Part shown: piece after piece, positions 7,328 to 64,000 of the stretch
Layout: the number at the start of each line of letters is the position of its first letter
Numbering within the stretch: position 1 is the first letter of the stretch
Assembly: GCA_945829425.1 (NCBI GenBank)
Contig: CALZUQ010000004.1
Span: 19,337-83,336, forward strand
Origin: an uncultured bacterium
GTDB lineage: Bacteria > Bacteroidota > Bacteroidia > Bacteroidales > Bacteroidaceae
Length of the DNA stretch: 64,000 bases
Direction: 5' to 3'
Notes under the pieces: generated by a model
The model's input: only the letters and a program-made list of their open reading frames with translations
Database searches by the model: none
Told to the model about the DNA's origin: nothing
Translations under genes and position numbers: made by a program

Positions 7328-7378
7328 GAAACCCACCTTAAGGTGTGTTACGCGAATTAACAGAACCCACCTTAAGCA
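7328..7378. repeat. Miniature remnant of the AGAACCCACCTTAA inverted-repeat family
   Basis: AAGGTGTGTTACGCGAATTAACAG is followed by the standard element right end AGAACCCACCTTAA. This looks like the two ends of the element described at 25490-25688 with almost all of the middle deleted. Confidence 0.65.
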
Positions 7379-16637: not shown

Positions 16638-16668
16638 TTTGGAAAATAAAAACTTTATAGTACCTTTG
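16638..16668 (+). promoter_or_regulatory. Promoter TTTG-N19-TACCTTTG
   Basis: Both boxes match the Bacteroidetes consensus. The expected transcription start (about 16675) coincides with the left end of the inverted-repeat element at 16677, so the element would form the very 5' end of the mRNA. Confidence 0.75.
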
Positions 16669-16676
16669 CAACTGTT

Positions 16677-16873
16677 TTAAGGTTGGTTCTATTAATTCGC
16701 TTTGTCAGAATTCCGATTTATCTCTGAGAGCAGAGTGTCAGTTTATGAGGGAGCGATGCGGGCATCGTGACCGAGGAAACTGGCAGTATGCGCCAGAGAG
16801 AAACGGAAAGATGACAAACGTCAATACATGATTACTTACATTTTGACGGTGGGAATTAATAGAACCAACCTTA
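16677..16873. repeat. Inverted-repeat element, copy A (197 bp)
   Basis: Termini are AAGGTTGGTTCT and AGAACCAACCTT; the other copies have GGTGGG/CCCACC at the same places, so the change is matched on both ends. The apex is GAGGGAG, then CGATGC-GG-GCATCG, then TGACCGA. A second stem GTCAGTTT/AAACTGGC flanks it. The right half holds an extra hairpin (CGTCA...TGACG). Confidence 0.85.
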
Positions 16874-17053
16874 TGCCAAAGGAGCAGAAGGCTCTACGTG
16901 AAGCAAAAAGGCGTAGAAAATACACTTCCACGCATTTCATCTACGAAAGGCTGCTTTATGACTACAAAGCCTAAAGGTGGGAATAGCCTGTTTACATTCT
17001 TTGGAATGATTGCTATACAATTAACGATATATAAACTAACAATTACAAAACTC

Positions 17054-18925
17054 ATGAAAAAAATCTACTATTTTATCCTGACAGCGCTGCTCAGCGTTGT
17101 CGGCATGACAGCAAAGGCTCAGACAATCACCGTAACGGTGGATGTTGACGACGCAAACAGAGTAGGCATTCAGGTTCAAAACGCTAATTACGTCTTGGAA
17201 GAACAGACTGTGGTAACAGGCAAGAACGTGATTACCATGGATGCTTACAAACAATTGAGGATATACGCCAAGAGCGGAGCTCTGCTTTCTACCGTAAAAG
17301 ACGTTACTAACGGTTGGGATGTCTCAACAGGCTATAAGAGCGAATATTCAAATAACCCGTATTCTGATGTAACATACTCCGTGACATCAGTGTCAGAAGA
17401 TGCGGTATATACAAAATCCTTCAAACTGACTGTTGACGACCCTTCAATAAACGTCACGCTGACAGGTTCTTACAGAGGCATAAAACTGACAGCCGGCGAG
17501 AATACAGTAAAATACGACCCTCAGACGGAGACACAGGTCATGATAAGCCCTTACGGCGGCAAACCTTTATATAAGGTTACTGACGGTGGCAATGACGTTA
17601 CAGCTCAGGGCAATACATATTACGTAGAACTCAGCGAGGCAACAGACATCAACGTAAAGGCAGCATGGCCTGCTGACGTGAAGTTCAAGGTTTCTTTCGT
17701 ATTTGGCACCGAGGAGTCAAAGAACTTCGTGAGCAGTGTATCTGTCGACGGCACACCGGTAAACGACTTCATCAACAGCTTTGAGGTGCAGGGCGGTTCA
17801 CAGCTTTCTATCACAGGCAACAACACAGAGTATGTTCTCGACAAATTCCTCAAGAACGGATCATCAGAATACTTCGGCTACGGACAGTATAACAGCTACA
17901 TCACTGGAGACGTAGTCTTCGGCATCACCGCCCACAAATACGGCACTATAAAGGTTACGCTCAACATCGACGACCCGGCTAACGTGACGGTTTACGACGG
18001 CTACGAGTACAACAACAAGATAATCAACGTCGTTGCCGGCAGCAACACCGTAGAACTCAGCGAGGGCGGCAACAAGACCATCACAATAAAAGCTAACGAA
18101 GGCTGCTTCCTGACTTCTGTAAGTGACGGAACGACGGAATACTTCTACTCTGGCAGCACAAGTGCTTCTGTCTATAACCTTCAGGACGGCATGACTGTCA
18201 CCGTGAAGTCAGGCAAGAAAGTACGTGAGAAAGAAGCTACCGTATTAGTTTACGGAAGAGAGAAAGCATCATGGTATTTCAACTTCGCAAGCGAGACAGA
18301 CAGATATTATCAATTCGACTTCGCTGAGGGCAATGGCTCTTTGAAGTTCGGCGACAGCGACCTTCCTTTCAACTTCGGATGCGGCGGTCCTGAGATAAGC
18401 GAGAGCACAGTATTCATCAACGGCGTTCGTGCTCATGCATACTATGGACAGTACAAACTGTTCTTCGACAACGGCGCAACGATAATCATCGACCTTGACA
18501 ACACCACTCTCAACGACCGCAAGACCCTCAACATCGACTTGGAGGGCGTAGAGGCAAGCGTAATAAGCAAGGTGGAAATACCTAACGGCGAGGCTTACGA
18601 ATGGGCTACAAAGGGTATAACATACCTCCCGGAATGGATGTCGTCAGTAGGTTTCGACATAACCATTACCCCGGCAGCGGGAGCTGTAATGGGCGTAAAG
18701 GTTGACGGCACACCGATAGACTCTGACGCTGAGGGCAAGTTCAACGTGACACTGACAAAGGACATCAAGTCACTCGCGATTTACGACCCTGCCACAGGCA
18801 TAACAGAGGTTAACGCTGAGACAGCAAAGACAAACGGCAAGATTTACACCGTTGCCGGAGTAGAGGTAAAGAACGCCAAGAAGGGTCTTTACATCATCAA
18901 CGGCAAGGCACAGGTTGTGAAATAA
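17054..18925 (+). CDS. Secreted repeat protein with Prevotella-type C-terminal tail
   Basis: Unrecognised function. A signal peptide (MKKIYYFILTALLSVVGMTAKAQ) is followed by about four beta-rich repeats of roughly 100 residues, each built around a 'V.VDDP..V.V' strand (VDVDDANRVGIQV, LTVDDPSINVTL, LNIDDPANVTVY) and a 'G.NTV' turn. The last about 40 residues (TNGKIYTVAGVEVKNAKKGLYIINGKAQVVK) match the ending common to many Prevotella extracellular proteins, probably a secretion or anchoring signal. The ORF track begins at 16898, but the 52 preceding residues are translated leader with no signal features, while the ATG at 17054 gives a perfect signal peptide. Its leader carries element copy A right at the promoter. 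Strong hairpin terminator after the stop. Confidence 0.8.
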   Translation: MKKIYYFILTALLSVVGMTAKAQTITVTVDVDDANRVGIQVQNANYVLEEQTVVTGKNVITMDAYKQLRIYAKSGALLSTVKDVTNGWDVSTGYKSEYSNNPYSDVTYSVTSVSEDAVYTKSFKLTVDDPSINVTLTGSYRGIKLTAGENTVKYDPQTETQVMISPYGGKPLYKVTDGGNDVTAQGNTYYVELSEATDINVKAAWPADVKFKVSFVFGTEESKNFVSSVSVDGTPVNDFINSFEVQGGSQLSITGNNTEYVLDKFLKNGSSEYFGYGQYNSYITGDVVFGITAHKYGTIKVTLNIDDPANVTVYDGYEYNNKIINVVAGSNTVELSEGGNKTITIKANEGCFLTSVSDGTTEYFYSGSTSASVYNLQDGMTVTVKSGKKVREKEATVLVYGREKASWYFNFASETDRYYQFDFAEGNGSLKFGDSDLPFNFGCGGPEISESTVFINGVRAHAYYGQYKLFFDNGATIIIDLDNTTLNDRKTLNIDLEGVEASVISKVEIPNGEAYEWATKGITYLPEWMSSVGFDITITPAAGAVMGVKVDGTPIDSDAEGKFNVTLTKDIKSLAIYDPATGITEVNAETAKTNGKIYTVAGVEVKNAKKGLYIINGKAQVVK

Positions 18926-25197: not shown

Positions 25198-25251
25198 AAA
25201 GGTGGGTTCTGAGAATATGGCATTACCATAATCTTCAGAACCCACCTTTTG
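25198..25251. terminator. Hairpin terminator built from element ends
   Basis: AAAGGTGGGTTCTGA pairs with TTCAGAACCCACCTTT around an inner ATGG/CCAT stem, followed by TTTTG. The stem uses the same terminal sequence as the dispersed inverted-repeat family, so a deleted element seems to act as a terminator here. Confidence 0.75.
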
Positions 25252-25388: not shown

Positions 25389-25420
25389 TTTGTCCATAAG
25401 GAGGAAAATATGTATTTTTG
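25389..25420 (+). promoter_or_regulatory. Promoter TTTG-N20-TATTTTTG for the DUF389 gene
   Basis: Good matches to both Bacteroidetes boxes with 20-bp spacing. The resulting leader of about 285 nt would contain the whole of element copy B. Confidence 0.7.
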
Positions 25421-25489: not shown

Positions 25490-25688
25490 TTAAGGTGGGT
25501 TCTATAAATTCGCTTTGTCAGATTTTGGAGTTATTTTCGAGTTCAAATTGTAAGTTAAAGAGGGAGTGTAGCGAGCTACATGACCGATTTAACTTGCGAT
25601 TTGAGCCGAAAAGAACCCAAAAGATGACAAAACGTCACTCACTATTAAAACCACTTTTGACGGTGGGAATTTATAGAACCCACCTTAA
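25490..25688. repeat. Inverted-repeat element, copy B (199 bp)
   Basis: Termini TTAAGGTGGGTTCTATAAATT and AATTTATAGAACCCACCTTAA are perfect complements. Inside, CAAATTGTAAGTTAAA (25544-25559) pairs with TTTAACTTGCGATTTG (25588-25603), with two G-U wobbles. The apex is GAGGGAG, TGTAGC-GA-GCTACA, TGACCGA. A CGTCA...TGACG hairpin sits in the right half, as in copy A. Confidence 0.88.
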
Positions 25689-25714: not shown

Positions 25715-27058
25715 ATGAAACTGACAGACATACTGAACCTCATAACCTCACACTTCGTGGTGAGGCAGGATATGGAGGACGAGCAGGAGATCATCCGGCA
25801 GATCAAGAACGGCGTGACGTTCCGCGGCTCCAACCTCTGGGTGCTGGTGTTCGCTATCTTCATAGCGTCGTTAGGCCTCAACGTCAACTCCACGGCAGTG
25901 ATAATAGGAGCCATGCTTATCTCCCCACTCATGGGACCTATCATAGGCATGGGTCTCGCCATAGGAATCAATGATGTCGAACTGCTGAAACGTGCGGCAC
26001 GTAACTTCGGCACGGCGACGCTGATCAGTGTGCTTACGGCAACGGTATATTTCCTCATAACGCCACTCGGTGAGGCGCAGTCAGAACTGCTGGCACGCAC
26101 GTCGCCGACGCTCTACGACGTGCTGATAGCCACCTTCGGCGGTGCGGCAGGCATCCTGGCGCTGTGTACGAAAGGCAAAGGCAACGTCATCCCGGGCGTA
26201 GCGATAGCTACAGCTCTCATGCCGCCGTTGTGTACGGCAGGGTACGGTCTTGCCACGGGACACCTGCTTTATTTCCTCGGAGCTTTTTACCTGTTCTTCA
26301 TAAACACCGTCTTCATAAGCCTTGCGACATACCTCGGAGTGAGGCTCATGCACTTCCGTCAGAAAGAGTTCGCCTCACCTGCTGCACAGAAGAAGGCACA
26401 GCGCATAATAACAGGACTGGCAGTAGTGACCATGCTGCCGGCGGTTGTCATGACGGTGAACATCGTCAGGAAGAGCATTTTCGATAACAACGTAAACAGA
26501 TTCGTACATACCGAGCTGTCGATGCCCGGCACACAGGTCATCTCGACGAACACCGACAAAGAGGGCAGTGTGCTGAACGTCGTGGCGGTAGGACGCGAGA
26601 TAAGCACGGAGAAAGCGAAAGACGCAGAAAGGCGCATGGCGCAATACGGACTTGGAGACTATGTGCTGAACATCATCCAGGGAGAGCAGTCGGACAGCAT
26701 GCTGACGCTCAGTTCGCGCCTGTCGCAGATAACGACGTCAAGGCAGGACGACCAAAAGAAAATCATGGAGATGTCGGCGCAGATAACACAGCTCCGCACG
26801 GCTCTCAACGCTTACGAGCGTTACGCCACCTTGTCACAGGAGGTTATGGGAGAAATGAAGGTTCTCTTCCCCAAGGTTAAGGCACTGAGCATGTCGAAGG
26901 CCGTGGAAGCACAGCGCGACACGACAGAGACCAAACAGTTTGTGGCAGCCAAGATCGTCACCGACGCAAAGTCCCGCATGACGGCGGAAGAGACCTCACG
27001 CCTGCAGCAATGGCTGAAGGAAAGGGTGAAGGCGGACAGTCTCGTAGTAGTATATTGA
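25715..27058 (+). CDS. DUF389 / TIGR00341 family membrane protein
   Basis: A 447-residue inner-membrane protein of unknown role. The family-defining block is near the N-terminus: RGSNLWVLVFAIFIASLGLNVNSTAVIIGAMLISPLMGPIIGMGLAIGIND. It is followed by helices with TPLGEAQSELLARTSPTLYDVLIATFGGAAGILA and GVAIATALMPPLCTAGYGLA, which are strongly conserved in DUF389 proteins. The region after about 265 is soluble and includes a probable coiled coil (residues about 330-385, SRLSQITTSRQDDQKKIMEMSAQITQLRTALNAYERY). The mRNA leader contains element copy B, so expression may depend on that structure. A good terminator follows. Confidence 0.88.
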   Translation: MKLTDILNLITSHFVVRQDMEDEQEIIRQIKNGVTFRGSNLWVLVFAIFIASLGLNVNSTAVIIGAMLISPLMGPIIGMGLAIGINDVELLKRAARNFGTATLISVLTATVYFLITPLGEAQSELLARTSPTLYDVLIATFGGAAGILALCTKGKGNVIPGVAIATALMPPLCTAGYGLATGHLLYFLGAFYLFFINTVFISLATYLGVRLMHFRQKEFASPAAQKKAQRIITGLAVVTMLPAVVMTVNIVRKSIFDNNVNRFVHTELSMPGTQVISTNTDKEGSVLNVVAVGREISTEKAKDAERRMAQYGLGDYVLNIIQGEQSDSMLTLSSRLSQITTSRQDDQKKIMEMSAQITQLRTALNAYERYATLSQEVMGEMKVLFPKVKALSMSKAVEAQRDTTETKQFVAAKIVTDAKSRMTAEETSRLQQWLKERVKADSLVVVY

Positions 27059-34802: not shown

Positions 34803-34838
34803 TATCTTTACATTCCTTTTATTAAAAATGTCGAATTG

Positions 34839-34870
34839 TTTGGAAATGTGAAAGAAAATAGGTAACTTTG
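34839..34870 (+). promoter_or_regulatory. Promoter TTTG-N20-TAACTTTG, first copy
   Basis: Perfect consensus promoter inside an about 68-bp segment that is repeated almost exactly at 36813-36881 upstream of the second ATPase gene. Confidence 0.8.
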
Positions 34871-34914
34871 CCGCTGAATAAAAGACATCATGATACAGAA
34901 AAAGTTTGTGAGAT

Positions 34915-36494: not shown

Positions 36495-36712
36495 TAAGGT
36501 GGGTTCTATAAATTCGCTTTGTCAGATTTTGGGATTTTTTTCGAGGATAAATTGTAAGTTGAAGAGGTTTCCGTCTCCCGGGAAACGTTTCTGTCCCCCG
36601 GGAAACGGGGGAACCGAAGGGGGTGTATAGCGGGCTACGTGACCGATAAGACTTACGATTTAGACCGAAAAGAAACCAAAATCTGACAAAGCGAATTAAT
36701 AGAACCCACCTA
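36495..36712. repeat. Inverted-repeat element, copy C (218 bp)
   Basis: The terminal inverted repeats extend for about 36 bp with one mismatch (AGGTGGGTTCTAT...CGCTTTGTCAGATTTTGG and its complement). The inner stem AAATTGTAAGT/ACTTACGATTT and the TGACCGA apex are kept. Near the apex there is an insertion made of two GTTTCnGTCnCCCGGGAAAC units. The right half lacks the extra CGTCA hairpin of copies A and B. Confidence 0.88.
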
Positions 36713-36785: not shown

Positions 36786-36841
36786 ATAGACTCCAAACCA
36801 CCGGTAGATTTTCATTCCTTTTTATTAAAAATGTCGAATTG

Positions 36842-36873
36842 TTTGGAAATGTGAAAGAAAATAGGTAACTTTG
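36842..36873 (+). promoter_or_regulatory. Promoter TTTG-N20-TAACTTTG, second copy
   Basis: Identical to the promoter at 34839-34870 and embedded in the same duplicated segment. It overlaps the ATG chosen by the ORF track (36871), which shows that start to be wrong. Confidence 0.8.
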
Positions 36874-36894
36874 CCGCTGAACAATATAATCATC

Positions 36895-38695: not shown

Positions 38696-38770
38696 CAAGC
38701 TCAAGGAAACTCCTTCCCTTTGGTCAGTGGCTCCAGAGGACAAGTCTCCCCCCATTATTATGAATGATGC

Positions 38771-38812
38771 GGTAAAGCCATGCGGTTTGAGAGATTGCCG
38801 CATGGCATTACC
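38771..38812. terminator. Hairpin GGTAAAGCCATGCGG (duplicated at 51029-51070)
   Basis: A 15-bp stem with one mismatch around a 12-nt loop, inside a segment of about 460 bp that is duplicated at 50998-51448. In the second copy the stem is perfect, so the difference between copies restores pairing. Confidence 0.75.
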
Positions 38813-38875
38813 CCCCCCTATCGTATGCCATTTATCGTTTTTCTTATACTTTTTTACCAAATAATTCTTCCTTTT

Positions 38876-38907
38876 TTTGCTCGTTTTATTTTTTTTCTGT
38901 AAATTTG
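38876..38907 (+). promoter_or_regulatory. Promoter TTTG-N20-TAAATTTG for the BMP lipoprotein operon
   Basis: Both boxes fit the consensus; the start codon lies about 22 nt beyond the expected transcription start. The same promoter survives in the duplicated fragment at 51135-51166. Confidence 0.75.
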
Positions 38908-38935
38908 CAGCAGTATTGGTATTATTAGTTAGGAT

Positions 38936-40042
38936 ATGCTTATATATATATACTGTAACATTTTTCACGTTATACTCTTCCTGTTTGTAAGTGGGGGGTG
39001 CAAAAAACGTCTGTCGACAAGTAACATAGCGTTATTTGCCTTATTCACTTTTACCTTATTTTCTCTTACGGCTTGTTCGGACAATGATGACGATGACACG
39101 TCTTCCGCATTGACTTCCGCCAATGTGGTGGAGGTAGTGTTCTCGCCATCGAGCTTCGGCGACTTGGGTTATAACGACATCATACTCACGGGACTTGAGG
39201 AGTCGCGCAAGCGTCTCGGCTTCGACGTGGTGATGCATGTACCACCGTCGGTGGAGGACGGTATCGCCATCTACAACAAATGGGCGCAGAAGGATGCCAA
39301 GGGCGAGCGACGACTCTTCATCTTCGCCAGCAACCAGTATGAGAGTGCCTTGCGCAACTCTACTGTGCGCCCCTCGGATGCCAACAGCACGGTGCTGCTC
39401 TACGAGACCCACCAGCCCATCGAAGGGATATACACCTTCCGCATAGGGATGTATGGTGCGGCTTATCTCATCGGAGCATACACCGCCCTAACCAATAATG
39501 AGGAATCCGACTACAAGGCAGCCGTACTCGCAGCCAATCCCTTCGACCGTAATGTTGACGGAGCGGCACAGGGATTCCGCGACGGGTTCCTTGAGGCAGG
39601 AGGAGCTGATGCCACCATATCCTATATCTCCGACAAGGACGGCGACGGCTACAACATGCCTGACGAAGCCTACGACCTCTGCACCCGACTTTACGAGTCC
39701 GGCCACACCTTTTTCTTCCCCGTGGCAGGCGGCAGCAACAAAGCTGTATATCAGTTCTCGCGCAACAATCTTCTCGGCTCTGCAGGCATCGACGGTGACA
39801 TGTCTGCCTATTCTGGTTTGATGAACTGTTCGCTCGTAAAGAATATCGGCAGTGCCACCGGCGACTTCATCGCCCTGTGGCTCGGCAAGAAGGAAATCCC
39901 CCAACATCAGGATTTCCTCTGGGATTCGGGCTACGTCAGCGTCATCTATTGTCATGATTGTAAGGAAACTGACGCACAAGGCATTGAAACATTCAAGAAC
40001 AATATTATAGGAAAGGAGGCAGAGTATGAAAAGAGCAAGTAA
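38936..40042 (+). CDS. BMP-family (PnrA-like) substrate-binding lipoprotein
   Basis: A 368-residue ligand-binding lipoprotein. After lipobox FSLTAC (Cys47) comes an acidic SDNDDDD stretch, which in Bacteroidetes is a surface-export signal. The rest has the type-1 periplasmic-binding fold of the BMP family (VVEVVFSPSSFGDLGYNDIILTGLEESRKRLG, YGAAYLIGAYTALT, NPFDRNVDGAAQGFRDGFLEAGG, FFFPVAGGSNKAVYQF), which binds nucleosides in known members. There is no ABC permease nearby, so transport is unlikely; sensing or scavenging is more plausible. The N-terminus is odd: two hydrophobic stretches precede Cys47, with G6 and A6 runs in the DNA between them. It overlaps the next gene by 17 bp. Its first about 85 codons are duplicated at 51195. 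Confidence 0.82.
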   Translation: MLIYIYCNIFHVILFLFVSGGCKKRLSTSNIALFALFTFTLFSLTACSDNDDDDTSSALTSANVVEVVFSPSSFGDLGYNDIILTGLEESRKRLGFDVVMHVPPSVEDGIAIYNKWAQKDAKGERRLFIFASNQYESALRNSTVRPSDANSTVLLYETHQPIEGIYTFRIGMYGAAYLIGAYTALTNNEESDYKAAVLAANPFDRNVDGAAQGFRDGFLEAGGADATISYISDKDGDGYNMPDEAYDLCTRLYESGHTFFFPVAGGSNKAVYQFSRNNLLGSAGIDGDMSAYSGLMNCSLVKNIGSATGDFIALWLGKKEIPQHQDFLWDSGYVSVIYCHDCKETDAQGIETFKNNIIGKEAEYEKSK

Positions 40043-50970: not shown

Positions 50971-51028
50971 AATTATGTAGGTCCTGTTAATTATTCGACA
51001 AGTCTCCCCCCATTATTATAATTGCTGC

Positions 51029-51070
51029 GGTAAAGCCATGCGGTTTGAGAAATTGCCGCATGGCTTTACC
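51029..51070. terminator. Hairpin GGTAAAGCCATGCGG, second copy
   Basis: A perfect 15-bp stem around TTTGAGAAATTG; the sister of the hairpin at 38771-38812. Confidence 0.75.
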
Positions 51071-51134
51071 CCCCCCCTATCGTATACCATTTATCGTTTT
51101 TATTATCCTTTTTTACTAAATAATTCTTCCTTTT

Positions 51135-51166
51135 TTTGCTCGTTTTATTTTTTTTCTGTAAATTTG
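51135..51166 (+). promoter_or_regulatory. Promoter TTTG-N20-TAAATTTG, duplicated copy
   Basis: The same boxes and spacing as 38876-38907. It now reads into the truncated lipoprotein fragment and could drive the LRR gene at 51613. Confidence 0.7.
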
Positions 51167-51194
51167 CAACAAAATTGGTATTATTAGTTAGGAT

Positions 51195-51589
51195 ATGCTT
51201 TTTTATATATACTGTAACATTTTTCACGTTATCCTCTTCCTGTTTGTAAGTGGGGGGTGCAAAAAACGTCTGTCGACAAGTAACATAGCGTTATTTGCCT
51301 TATTCACTTTTACCTTATTTTCTCTTACGGCTTGTTCGGACAATGATGACGATGACACGTCTTCCGCATTGACTTCCGCCAATGTGGTGGAGGTAGTGTT
51401 CTCGCCATCGAGCTTCGGCGACTTGGGTTATAACGACATCATACTGACCACAGTGTGGATTTCGAATCAACATCGTTCGACAGGAACGCTATGCCCGAGG
51501 ACATCACCAACTGCACCGAGGCGCAAGCCGACGTCATGGCAGACCTGTTCTACAAGTGTGCCGTAGCTGCCAACAGCAAATTCCATTGA
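51195..51589 (+). pseudogene. Chimeric remnant: BMP lipoprotein 5' end joined to another gene's 3' end
   Basis: From 51195 to about 51445 the DNA copies the first about 84 codons of the BMP lipoprotein (to SFGDLGYNDIIL). At 51446 it changes abruptly to unrelated sequence. In a different frame (51446-51589) that sequence reads DHSVDFESTSFDRNAMPEDITNCTE...YKCAVAANSKFH and then a stop, which looks like the natural end of a lost gene. The ORF track follows the first frame to 51566 only as a frameshifted tail. This is a deletion junction. Confidence 0.8.
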
Positions 51590-57341: not shown

Positions 57342-57704
57342 CAGAACTTTTGAGTACTATGTGGACGGATTAGGCTGGAAGCCTATACTTTGAGTAACCC
57401 GGGACGAAGTCTCCGGACTATGCCAAGGTCTCCCCCACCCTCTGCTTAGAGGGCAGTACCTTGCACGCCTCTGCTGCATAAGTGATGTACTGGCTTCCAG
57501 CCAGTACCTTAACCTTGACTTGAAACCTGGAACCTGAAACCTGAAACCTGAAACTTGAAACCTGAAACTTGAAACCTGAAACCTGAAACCAGGAACTTGA
57601 AACCTGAAATCTGGAACTTGAAACCAGGAACTTGAAACCTGAAACTTGAAACCTGGAACTTGACAATTATACATTATACATTGTAAATTATAATAAAAGA
57701 CAAT
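57342..57704. other. 363-bp intergenic region with short-repeat tract (first copy)
   Basis: Holds a perfect GTACTGGCT-TCC-AGCCAGTAC hairpin (57487-57507), the GAAACCTG repeat tract (57507-57664) and an AT-rich leader. The whole region recurs almost unchanged at 63559-63921. Confidence 0.85.
57507..57664. repeat. GAAACCTGGAACCTGAAACCTG-type short tandem repeats
   Basis: About 20 decamer-like units (GAAACCTG, GAACTTGAAA, GAAACCAG) preceded by CCTTAACCTTGACTT. On the minus strand this gives the FQVSGFRFQV ORFs listed in the track, which are artefacts of the repeat. Confidence 0.9.
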
Positions 57705-59411
57705 ATGAAAAAGAACAAATGGTTCACAATGCTGCTGATGGCAGCAATGTGCGTGTTAGGATTCACATCGTGTAGCGATGATGACGACGACAATGGCGAC
57801 TCTCCCGACACACCTTCGGAGGAACTTGCCGACTACACCATCCTTCTATATGGATGTGGCGGAAGCAACCTCGACGATTGCCTCCTCTTCAACCTGCAAC
57901 AGATTGACGGAATGGGCTACAACGAGAAAGTGAGGTTTACGGGACTGGTGAAATTCTCCCAGCCCTACCAAAATGACGTGAAGAAGCAAGGCACGAGGCT
58001 CTTCAACATGACACCCGGTGGAATGGAGGATAGCCAAGTGGCAGACATATCCTTCAGGCTGAAAGATCCGCAGAACCTTGCCAATTTCATCGTGGATGCC
58101 CAGAAACGTATGCCCGCAAAGAAATACATCATAATATTCTGGAACCACGGCAATACCTTTGACAAGGATGACAATCTCGTGCTCGACAGCTACACCACAG
58201 GAACACGCAGTCTGCTGTACGACGACAACACCGACGAGACAATGTCAATATTCGAGGTGGAGGAAGCAATGAAGAGGGCAGAGAATCTCGGCGCGCAGAA
58301 ACTGTCGTTGGTTTATTGGGACGTATGCTTGATGAACATGATAGAGAACATATACCAAATAAAGGACCACACCGACTATGTTATGGGAGCAGGACACCTC
58401 ACCCCGGGACTTGGCGGCAACTATCCCGAACTCATCAATGCCTTGTCGAACAACGACACGCTGGAAGACGCACTGCGCGAATATGTGCCCGTTGTCCTTC
58501 AAATGTGGAGATTGACAGAAGGCAATGATGCTACAGACCTCAGCGTCATAAACACGGCAAAGCTGGAGCCGCTGGTTCAGGGAATCAGGGAATACTCGCA
58601 GCAGCTGTACGACATCATGAGCAAGCCAGACAGCCAGGAAGCCCTGCGCATTAGCTACGTTAGCGGATGCACCGACGAAAAGAGACCCTTTTACGCACAA
58701 ACCTCCAATCTGTACTTCTTCTATTCCCAGAGCACGTCGGTCGATCTCATCTCCACGTTGACGATAATGGCACATTCCTATCCTGGGTTTAACGGCACAC
58801 TGTCTGCCAGCGCAACGAAAGTGCGCAAGGCACTCGACGAGGCTACTTTAATTAAGGCTTCCAACAATCTTCCATCGCAACTGGAGGAGGTTGGCATCGG
58901 CATACATTGGATGTGGACGGAGGACTACGAGGCTACGGTGAAGAATGTCTATCCACACCTCGCCTTCGACAAGGTTGCAGGCTGGAGCCGCTTCATGGCG
59001 AACAATCCGTGGCGCATAGTCAGTCTCGACACCTCTACTCTTAAGTTCTCGCTTGTGGCGGTGCCCACATGGACACTGTCGTGGAGCCTCGTCACTCCTG
59101 GCGACCTCACGGAGAATGAGCAGCAGAGCATAGGCCAATACTTGGCACGCATCCTCACGCCGCAAGAACTGGCCTACCACAAGCAGATGCAGGTGGAAGC
59201 GGCGGAACGCCTCGCTTACACTCTTAGTCGAAGCGTACGGGAAGCAATCATTAAAAGAATCACCGCAATACTGAAGGAAACGCGCCCAAACAGCACCACA
59301 GTGCCCGAGTTCACCTATCGGCTTACACTCAAGAGCGACGACCCCTCAACCGAGGAATATATTGTAGAGATAACTGATGAAGACTTAGATCAAGAAGCAG
59401 AAGAAAGTTAA
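57705..59411 (+). CDS. Clostripain-family (C11) cysteine protease lipoprotein
   Basis: A 568-residue lipoprotein: lipobox GFTSC (Cys23) then SDDDDDNGDS, an acidic surface-export signal. The protease domain begins ADYTILLYGCGGSNLDDCLLFNLQQI and has His148 in YIIIFWNHGNTF and Cys208 in LSLVYWDVCLMNMIE, the catalytic pair of clan CD family C11 (as in clostripain, PmC11 and fragipain, which prefer Arg or Lys). GGNYPELINAL and a helical C-terminal half (to about residue 560) follow. It sits between LRR genes and is preceded by a repeat tract; a second copy starts at 63922. Processing of surface or host proteins is the likely role, inferred from the family and the lipoprotein signal. Confidence 0.9.
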   Translation: MKKNKWFTMLLMAAMCVLGFTSCSDDDDDNGDSPDTPSEELADYTILLYGCGGSNLDDCLLFNLQQIDGMGYNEKVRFTGLVKFSQPYQNDVKKQGTRLFNMTPGGMEDSQVADISFRLKDPQNLANFIVDAQKRMPAKKYIIIFWNHGNTFDKDDNLVLDSYTTGTRSLLYDDNTDETMSIFEVEEAMKRAENLGAQKLSLVYWDVCLMNMIENIYQIKDHTDYVMGAGHLTPGLGGNYPELINALSNNDTLEDALREYVPVVLQMWRLTEGNDATDLSVINTAKLEPLVQGIREYSQQLYDIMSKPDSQEALRISYVSGCTDEKRPFYAQTSNLYFFYSQSTSVDLISTLTIMAHSYPGFNGTLSASATKVRKALDEATLIKASNNLPSQLEEVGIGIHWMWTEDYEATVKNVYPHLAFDKVAGWSRFMANNPWRIVSLDTSTLKFSLVAVPTWTLSWSLVTPGDLTENEQQSIGQYLARILTPQELAYHKQMQVEAAERLAYTLSRSVREAIIKRITAILKETRPNSTTVPEFTYRLTLKSDDPSTEEYIVEITDEDLDQEAEES

Positions 59412-63558: not shown

Positions 63559-63921
63559 CTGAACTTTTGAGTACTATGTGGACGGATTAGGCTGGAAGCC
63601 TATACTTTGAGTAACCCGGGACGAAGTCTCCGGACTATGCCAAGGTCTCCCCCACCCTCTGCTTAGAGGGCAGTACCTTGCACGCCTCTGCTGCATAAGT
63701 GATGTACTGGCTTCCAGCCAGTACCTTAACCTTGACTTGAAACCTGGAACCTGAAACCTGAAACCTGAAACTTGAAACCTGAAACTTGAAACCTGAAACC
63801 TGAAACCAGGAACTTGAAACCTGAAATCTGGAACTTGAAACCAGGAACTTGAAACCTGAAACTTGAAACCTGGAACTTGACAATTATACATTATACATTG
63901 TAAATTATAATAAAAGACAAT
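63559..63921. other. 363-bp intergenic region with short-repeat tract (second copy)
   Basis: An almost base-for-base copy of 57342-57704, offset by 6217 bp, with its GTACTGGCT hairpin and GAAACCTG tract (63724-63881). Differences are single bases (for example CATTAACA versus CATTAACT). Confidence 0.9.
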
Positions 63922-64000
63922 ATGAAAAAGAACAAATGGTTCACAATGCTGCTGATGGCAGCAATGTGTGTGTTAGGATTCACATCGTGCAGTGACGACG
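63922..64000 (+). CDS. C11 protease lipoprotein, second copy (partial, runs off the window)
   Basis: The first 26 codons (MKKNKWFTMLLMAAMCVLGFTSCSDD) are identical in protein to the C11 gene at 57705, with a few synonymous changes in the DNA. This shows that the LRR-C11 cassette is tandemly repeated and continues beyond the window. Confidence 0.85.
   Translation, partial: MKKNKWFTMLLMAAMCVLGFTSCSDD

Follow-up and report, generated by a model that had tools for sequence, protein, structure and literature searches.

Introduction

ERIC and the Correia elements (CREE/NEMIS) insert at a 2-bp TA target site, and in the REPIN/RAYT systems, where palindromic intergenic repeats are moved in trans, a folded single strand matters. 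ERIC, Correia and other prokaryotic MITEs are short, non-coding and intergenic, with inverted ends, a target duplication, a preference for AT-rich gaps and transcripts which would fold stably (PMC10969869); the genus Prevotella is not mentioned in that review. MITEs of Prevotella, a dominant group in the gut and rumen, are little described, and the one 188-bp repeat reported, PINSR, is an intergenic, non-coding sequence of Prevotella intermedia and Prevotella nigrescens which is present at 177-184 copies per genome and which, according to its authors, has no terminal inverted repeats and is confined to four species (PMC4755523). In Porphyromonas gingivalis, the MITE BrickBuilt has IS5-family ISPg-like ends and a 23-nt minisatellite (PMC4596501).

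Here, a repeated element of about 190 bp was analysed in a 64,000-nt stretch of DNA (the window; contig C4:19337-83336) from a 2.83 Mb genome in 85 contigs (the own genome), and it appears to be a mobile repeat that is newly described here, and not a gene switch. It shares with ERIC, Correia and other prokaryotic MITEs the traits listed above, and differs from ERIC and Correia in having its own end sequence, a 4-bp TWWA duplication, a core that covaries across species, an occurrence in Prevotella and relatives, and no partner IS found. It resembles PINSR in its near-equal length, its intergenic and non-coding nature, its high amplification and its presence in Prevotella, but has terminal inverted repeats, a distinction drawn from the published description of PINSR rather than from an alignment of the consensus sequences; were PINSR to belong to the same family, the present element would amount to a broader account of a repeat already known. 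BrickBuilt is likewise an intergenic element of the Bacteroidota with no coding capacity, but its ISPg-like ends and minisatellite were not seen in the element. The element is similar to REPINs as a palindromic intergenic repeat, probably moved in trans, for which a folded single strand may matter, but differs from REPIN/RAYT in its 4-bp target duplication, its size (~190 bp) and the lack of a Y1_Tnp match in several copy-rich genomes. For this family the ends are known exactly, the target follows a rule and a covariance model is available for annotation; the family also cautions against taking hairpins in Prevotella leaders for riboregulators.

Copies of the element in the window

Upstream of copy A, a Bacteroidetes-type promoter match was identified on the forward strand (16638-16668), made up of TTTG (16638-16641), a 19-nt spacer and TACCTTTG (16661-16668); the Bacteroides sigma-ABfr consensus has TAnnTTTG at -7 with TTTG near -33 (PMC7366714). 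This match, TTTG-N19-TACCTTTG ending at 16668, had been reported in the first-pass annotation and is indeed present, and the strict pattern TTTG-N18-21-TAnnTTTG occurs in the window far above chance (n = 8 compared to 0.51 expected; 0 of 100 shuffles reached 8).

Copy A (16681-16870, forward strand) is a 190-bp MITE-like element, defined by its ends, its fold (z-score -12.85) and a match of its core to covariance model R1 (16701-16820), and is bounded by the terminal inverted repeats GGTTGGTTCTATTAATT and AATTAATAGAACCAACC. Comparison of its edges gave an imperfect target duplication, with TTAA on the left (16677-16680) and TTAT on the right (16871-16874; 3/4 match, one mismatch). Copy A had been described as beginning exactly at the predicted transcription start, at 16677; the corrected inverted repeat starts at 16681, which is 12 nt past the last G of the promoter and a few nt beyond the predicted +1, and it is therefore near this start rather than exactly on it, the position of the start being predicted to within a few nt. 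The gene 3' of copy A (17054-18925, forward strand) encodes a secreted protein with no Pfam family. A small ORF of 33 aa, MPKEQKALREAKRRRKYTSTHFIYERLLYDYKA (16873-16974), has its ATG on the right border of copy A, and no relatives of it were found in 60 genomes.

Copy B (25494-25684, forward strand; 191 bp) matches R1 at 25514-25633 (131.8 bits), has a fold z-score of -14.33 and is flanked by a perfect duplication, TTAA/TTAA (25490-25493 and 25685-25688). It lies, as the first-pass annotation had it, in the leader of the DUF389 gene (25715-27058, forward strand; PF04087, 6.2e-46), downstream of a Bacteroidetes-type promoter match (25389-25420, forward strand). Copy C (36498-36710, forward strand), identified by its R1 match and fold, is 213 bp long and has a palindromic module inserted in its core; its flanking 4-mers (ATAA and TAAA) do not match each other, and it lies upstream, not downstream, of the promoter match of the next gene (36842-36873).

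Ends, length and target duplication

The inverted end of the element is GGTGGGTTCTATTAATT. Among 44 copies with both ends that were examined in the own genome, the typical length was 190-192 bp (range 32-463 bp), and 25 of the 44 measured 192-194 bp when the flanking A and T were counted. Exact 4-bp duplications were observed for 30 of these 44 copies and for 53 of 69 copies taken from several species; TTTA, TTAA, TATA and TAAA account for 43 of the 53 exact duplications, giving a palindromic target consensus of TWWA, and deviant targets (ATAA, TTAT, ATTA and TTCA) were found to be duplicated too. A reading of the duplication as 2 bp was dropped, and a 4-bp duplication which includes the adjoining A and T was adopted instead, because elements with unusual edges repeat ATAA, TTAT or ATTA on both sides. 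The border drawn earlier was one base off in consequence, as the outer A...T belongs to the duplication.

Several features by which MITEs are recognised were found, namely a length below ~500 bp, the lack of a transposase gene, terminal inverted repeats, a target duplication and a multi-copy, intergenic distribution; the element has no coding capacity. Searching the window against Rfam at the gathering threshold gave 0 matches.

Copy number and distribution

When copy B was used as a DNA query, 59 matches were obtained in the own genome, and the 19-nt end gave 158 matches compared to 0 for the reversed-pattern control; dozens of copies of the element are present. With up to 1 mismatch allowed, 37 of the 299 genus genomes contained the end, the largest number of matches in a single genome being 113. 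The core family, searched with model R1 (built on the 120-nt core), was present in 68 of the 299, a set which includes genomes with a different, still self-complementary end, GGCTGG...CCAGCC (G187, G215, G070 and others); in several cases, copies with this end also showed a 4-bp duplication (TACA, TACT, TAAA, AATT). Among the matches listed, the named genomes with the end were Prevotella MAGs (many from the rumen or other ruminant stomachs) and other Bacteroidales MAGs, as well as Candidatus Sodaliphilus, Colivivens and Prevotella bivia. Copy numbers were burst-like in some genomes, with none in most, and the element was not found in IMG/VR (searched with the exact end), in plasmids or in phages.

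Hairpin fold and covariation

The core forms one long hairpin in each copy, with z-scores from -12.9 to -14.3 for copies A, B and C. Across 37 non-redundant copies, the structure derived from copy A was kept in 90.0% of cells (slid control structures pair in 40-46%), and helix 1, which is formed by the terminal inverted repeats, was paired in 95.9% of cells. Double changes were observed in 39 of 72 pairs, and the covariation score was 0.330 compared to 0.126 after shuffling (0 of 500 shuffles reached it). Among copies from other species alone (n = 25), 41 core pairs were kept at 91%, with 27 compensated.

The forward strand folded better than the reverse strand in 36 of the 37 copies, by ~13 kcal/mol, and after clustering at 85% identity it was the better strand in 13 of 14 clusters with RNA parameters and in all 14 with DNA parameters. 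G-U cells outnumbered A-C cells by 111 to 22 (union of the pairs predicted on both strands), but the split by column was 20 to 11 (P = 0.15), which is not significant alone, and for this reason a strand-specific fold is considered likely and not proven. The conserved core hairpin could serve mobilisation, or it could make insertions tolerable to the host.

Insertion sites and alternative explanations

The element is very probably a MITE-like non-autonomous transposon, moved in trans and inserting at TWWA. A total of 79 unique sites with flanks were compared; genes were called with a crude codon-usage caller and promoters are consensus matches, so that the numbers are approximate. Intergenic positions accounted for 74 of the 79 sites compared to 45.9 expected from local TWWA sites, and the gaps were tandem in 37 cases, convergent in 13 and divergent in 11. 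An insertion-site preference had been one of two suggestions made for the element in the first-pass annotation, and it stands for palindromic TWWA in AT-rich intergenic DNA, though not for leaders.

The other suggestion was a cis-regulatory leader RNA, in which transcription would start at the left end of the element and the hairpin would control the secreted-protein and DUF389 genes. A strict promoter match does precede copies A and B and a start codon follows them, and a hairpin which is better on one strand and which covaries between species would suit an RNA. When all sites are considered, however, no conserved position or orientation upstream of a gene family was found and no downstream gene is shared; in tandem gaps the element lies with transcription in 18 cases and against it in 17, and it is found in convergent and divergent gaps too. 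Two leaders out of three in the window does not generalise, as leader placement was seen in 4 of 10 tandem gaps with a detectable promoter compared to 3.05 expected for TWWA sites drawn at random from those gaps. Only 1 of the 79 sites was no more than 4 nt from a predicted start compared to 0.08 expected, and since this site is copy A itself, which was chosen for that feature, the coincidence carries little weight. The comparison of orthologous leaders that had been proposed as a check was run, and no element was present upstream of the DUF389 orthologues in relatives or of the secreted-protein orthologues in four relatives; with no Rfam family matched either, a regulatory leader is considered very improbable. 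Even less credible is a view of the copies as old hairpins which do not move and are retained to terminate transcription or to protect mRNA 3' ends. In tandem gaps, 41% of copies have a stop codon no more than 60 nt away, compared to 33% expected, and a related short hairpin (25198-25250) follows a stop codon, but exact target duplications, burst-like numbers in some genomes with none in most, the occurrence of both orientations and the lack of any T-run requirement all argue against immobility.

A further question is whether movement has to pass through a strand-specific folded form (ssDNA or RNA), as in single-strand transposition with hairpin recognition, in place of double-stranded cut and paste. 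The strand preference of the clusters and the cell-wise excess of G-U over A-C point in this direction, as do a core that is compensated while its sequence diverges and a length which stays near 190-192 bp. A true 4-bp target duplication is, however, unexpected for Y1/HUH single-strand transposition, the per-column G-U excess falls short of significance and no significant strand bias was found along the G187 chromosome (11+/6- below and 13+/21- above 2.0 Mb, the skew being too noisy to define replichores). Movement by a RAYT was tried as a hypothesis and rejected, as Y1_Tnp genes, though widespread in the genus, are missing from copy-rich genomes: no match to Y1_Tnp (PF01797) was found in the copy-rich G187, G215 or G070, and there were two weak matches in the own genome. 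Y1/RAYT transposases are unlikely on account of these genomes and of the 4-bp duplication, and an obligatory folded intermediate is judged unlikely overall. Two long ORFs of 574 and 494 aa, at G000:C1:118718 (L088) and G000:C1:100453 (L089), have Y1_Tnp/HUH-like motifs together with internal peptide repeats (STPAGVG... and SSPGI...) that are unusual for transposases.

The most likely course of events is as follows. An enzyme supplied in trans would recognise the inverted ends GGTGGGTTCTATTAATT, cut TWWA with a 4-nt stagger and insert the element, the 4 bp being duplicated; copies would then gather between genes irrespective of transcription, because TWWA targets are dense in AT-rich gaps. Copy A would have been inserted a few nt 3' of a pre-existing promoter and, if transcribed at all, would give the mRNA a stable 5'-terminal hairpin; should the promoter be used, a side effect on the downstream gene is possible.

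In 98 contig stretches, neither an inverted pair of ends with a spacing of 0.5-6 kb nor a transposase gene enclosed by the ends was found, and a transposase-bearing partner was absent from the end listing of three copy-rich genomes and from sampled stretches of one. The one candidate partner span, in G187 (C1:1357853-1360102) was rejected, as it contained RNase HII-like and WYL/HTH-like genes (judged from their translations) and separate short elements. The constant length and covarying core exceed what a plain internal-deletion MITE needs; together with the imperfect duplication of copy A, they count against the account given here. The fold may matter for the element's own spread. The family raises the questions of which enzyme moves the element and why the interior hairpin is compensated on one strand. 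It is conceivable, if doubtful, that the family is one of small mobile elements found across the genus which need a one-strand hairpin with a conserved GGGAG...GACCGA centre in order to spread and are recognised by a trans-acting enzyme making 4-bp TWWA duplications, and that the element is a structured one in its own right and does not descend by deletion from an insertion sequence.

Other repeats

Longer copies of the element (L031, L032, L034, L037, L042 and, in the window, 36565-36630) hold other palindromic modules within the arms or the core of the hairpin, among them GGTTTCYGTCYCCCGGGAAAC and ...AAAGCAAGCTTTGTCTCTGC..., and several palindromic repeat families therefore nest in one another. 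Solitary palindromes of ~25-30 bp, consisting of little beyond both ends (GGTGGGTTCTATTAATTCCCACC), were observed at L040:107-131, L047:2630-2654, L046:1380-1404 and window 7340-7371; some are bounded by a 4-bp TWWA duplication, as at window 7340 (TTAA/TTAA). The short hairpin at 25198-25250, which is near-perfect and terminator-like (-31.8 kcal/mol), carries the end sequence of the element (GGTGGGTTCT...AGAACCCACC) directly after the stop codon of an LRR gene, and is perhaps a domesticated mini-element.

Three repeats of other kinds were also seen in the window. A 65-bp repeat (98% identity; 34817-34881 and 36820-36884) contains identical promoter matches for two neighbouring AAA-ATPase_like/PDDEXK_9 genes, and a repeat of ~370 bp (94-97% identical; 38739-39110 and 50997-51369) also includes an identical promoter match (38876 and 51135). 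Within a longer duplicated block, 7-bp repeats of the CCTGAAA type form a pair of identical arrays (57490-57705 and 63707-63922), 6217 bp apart.
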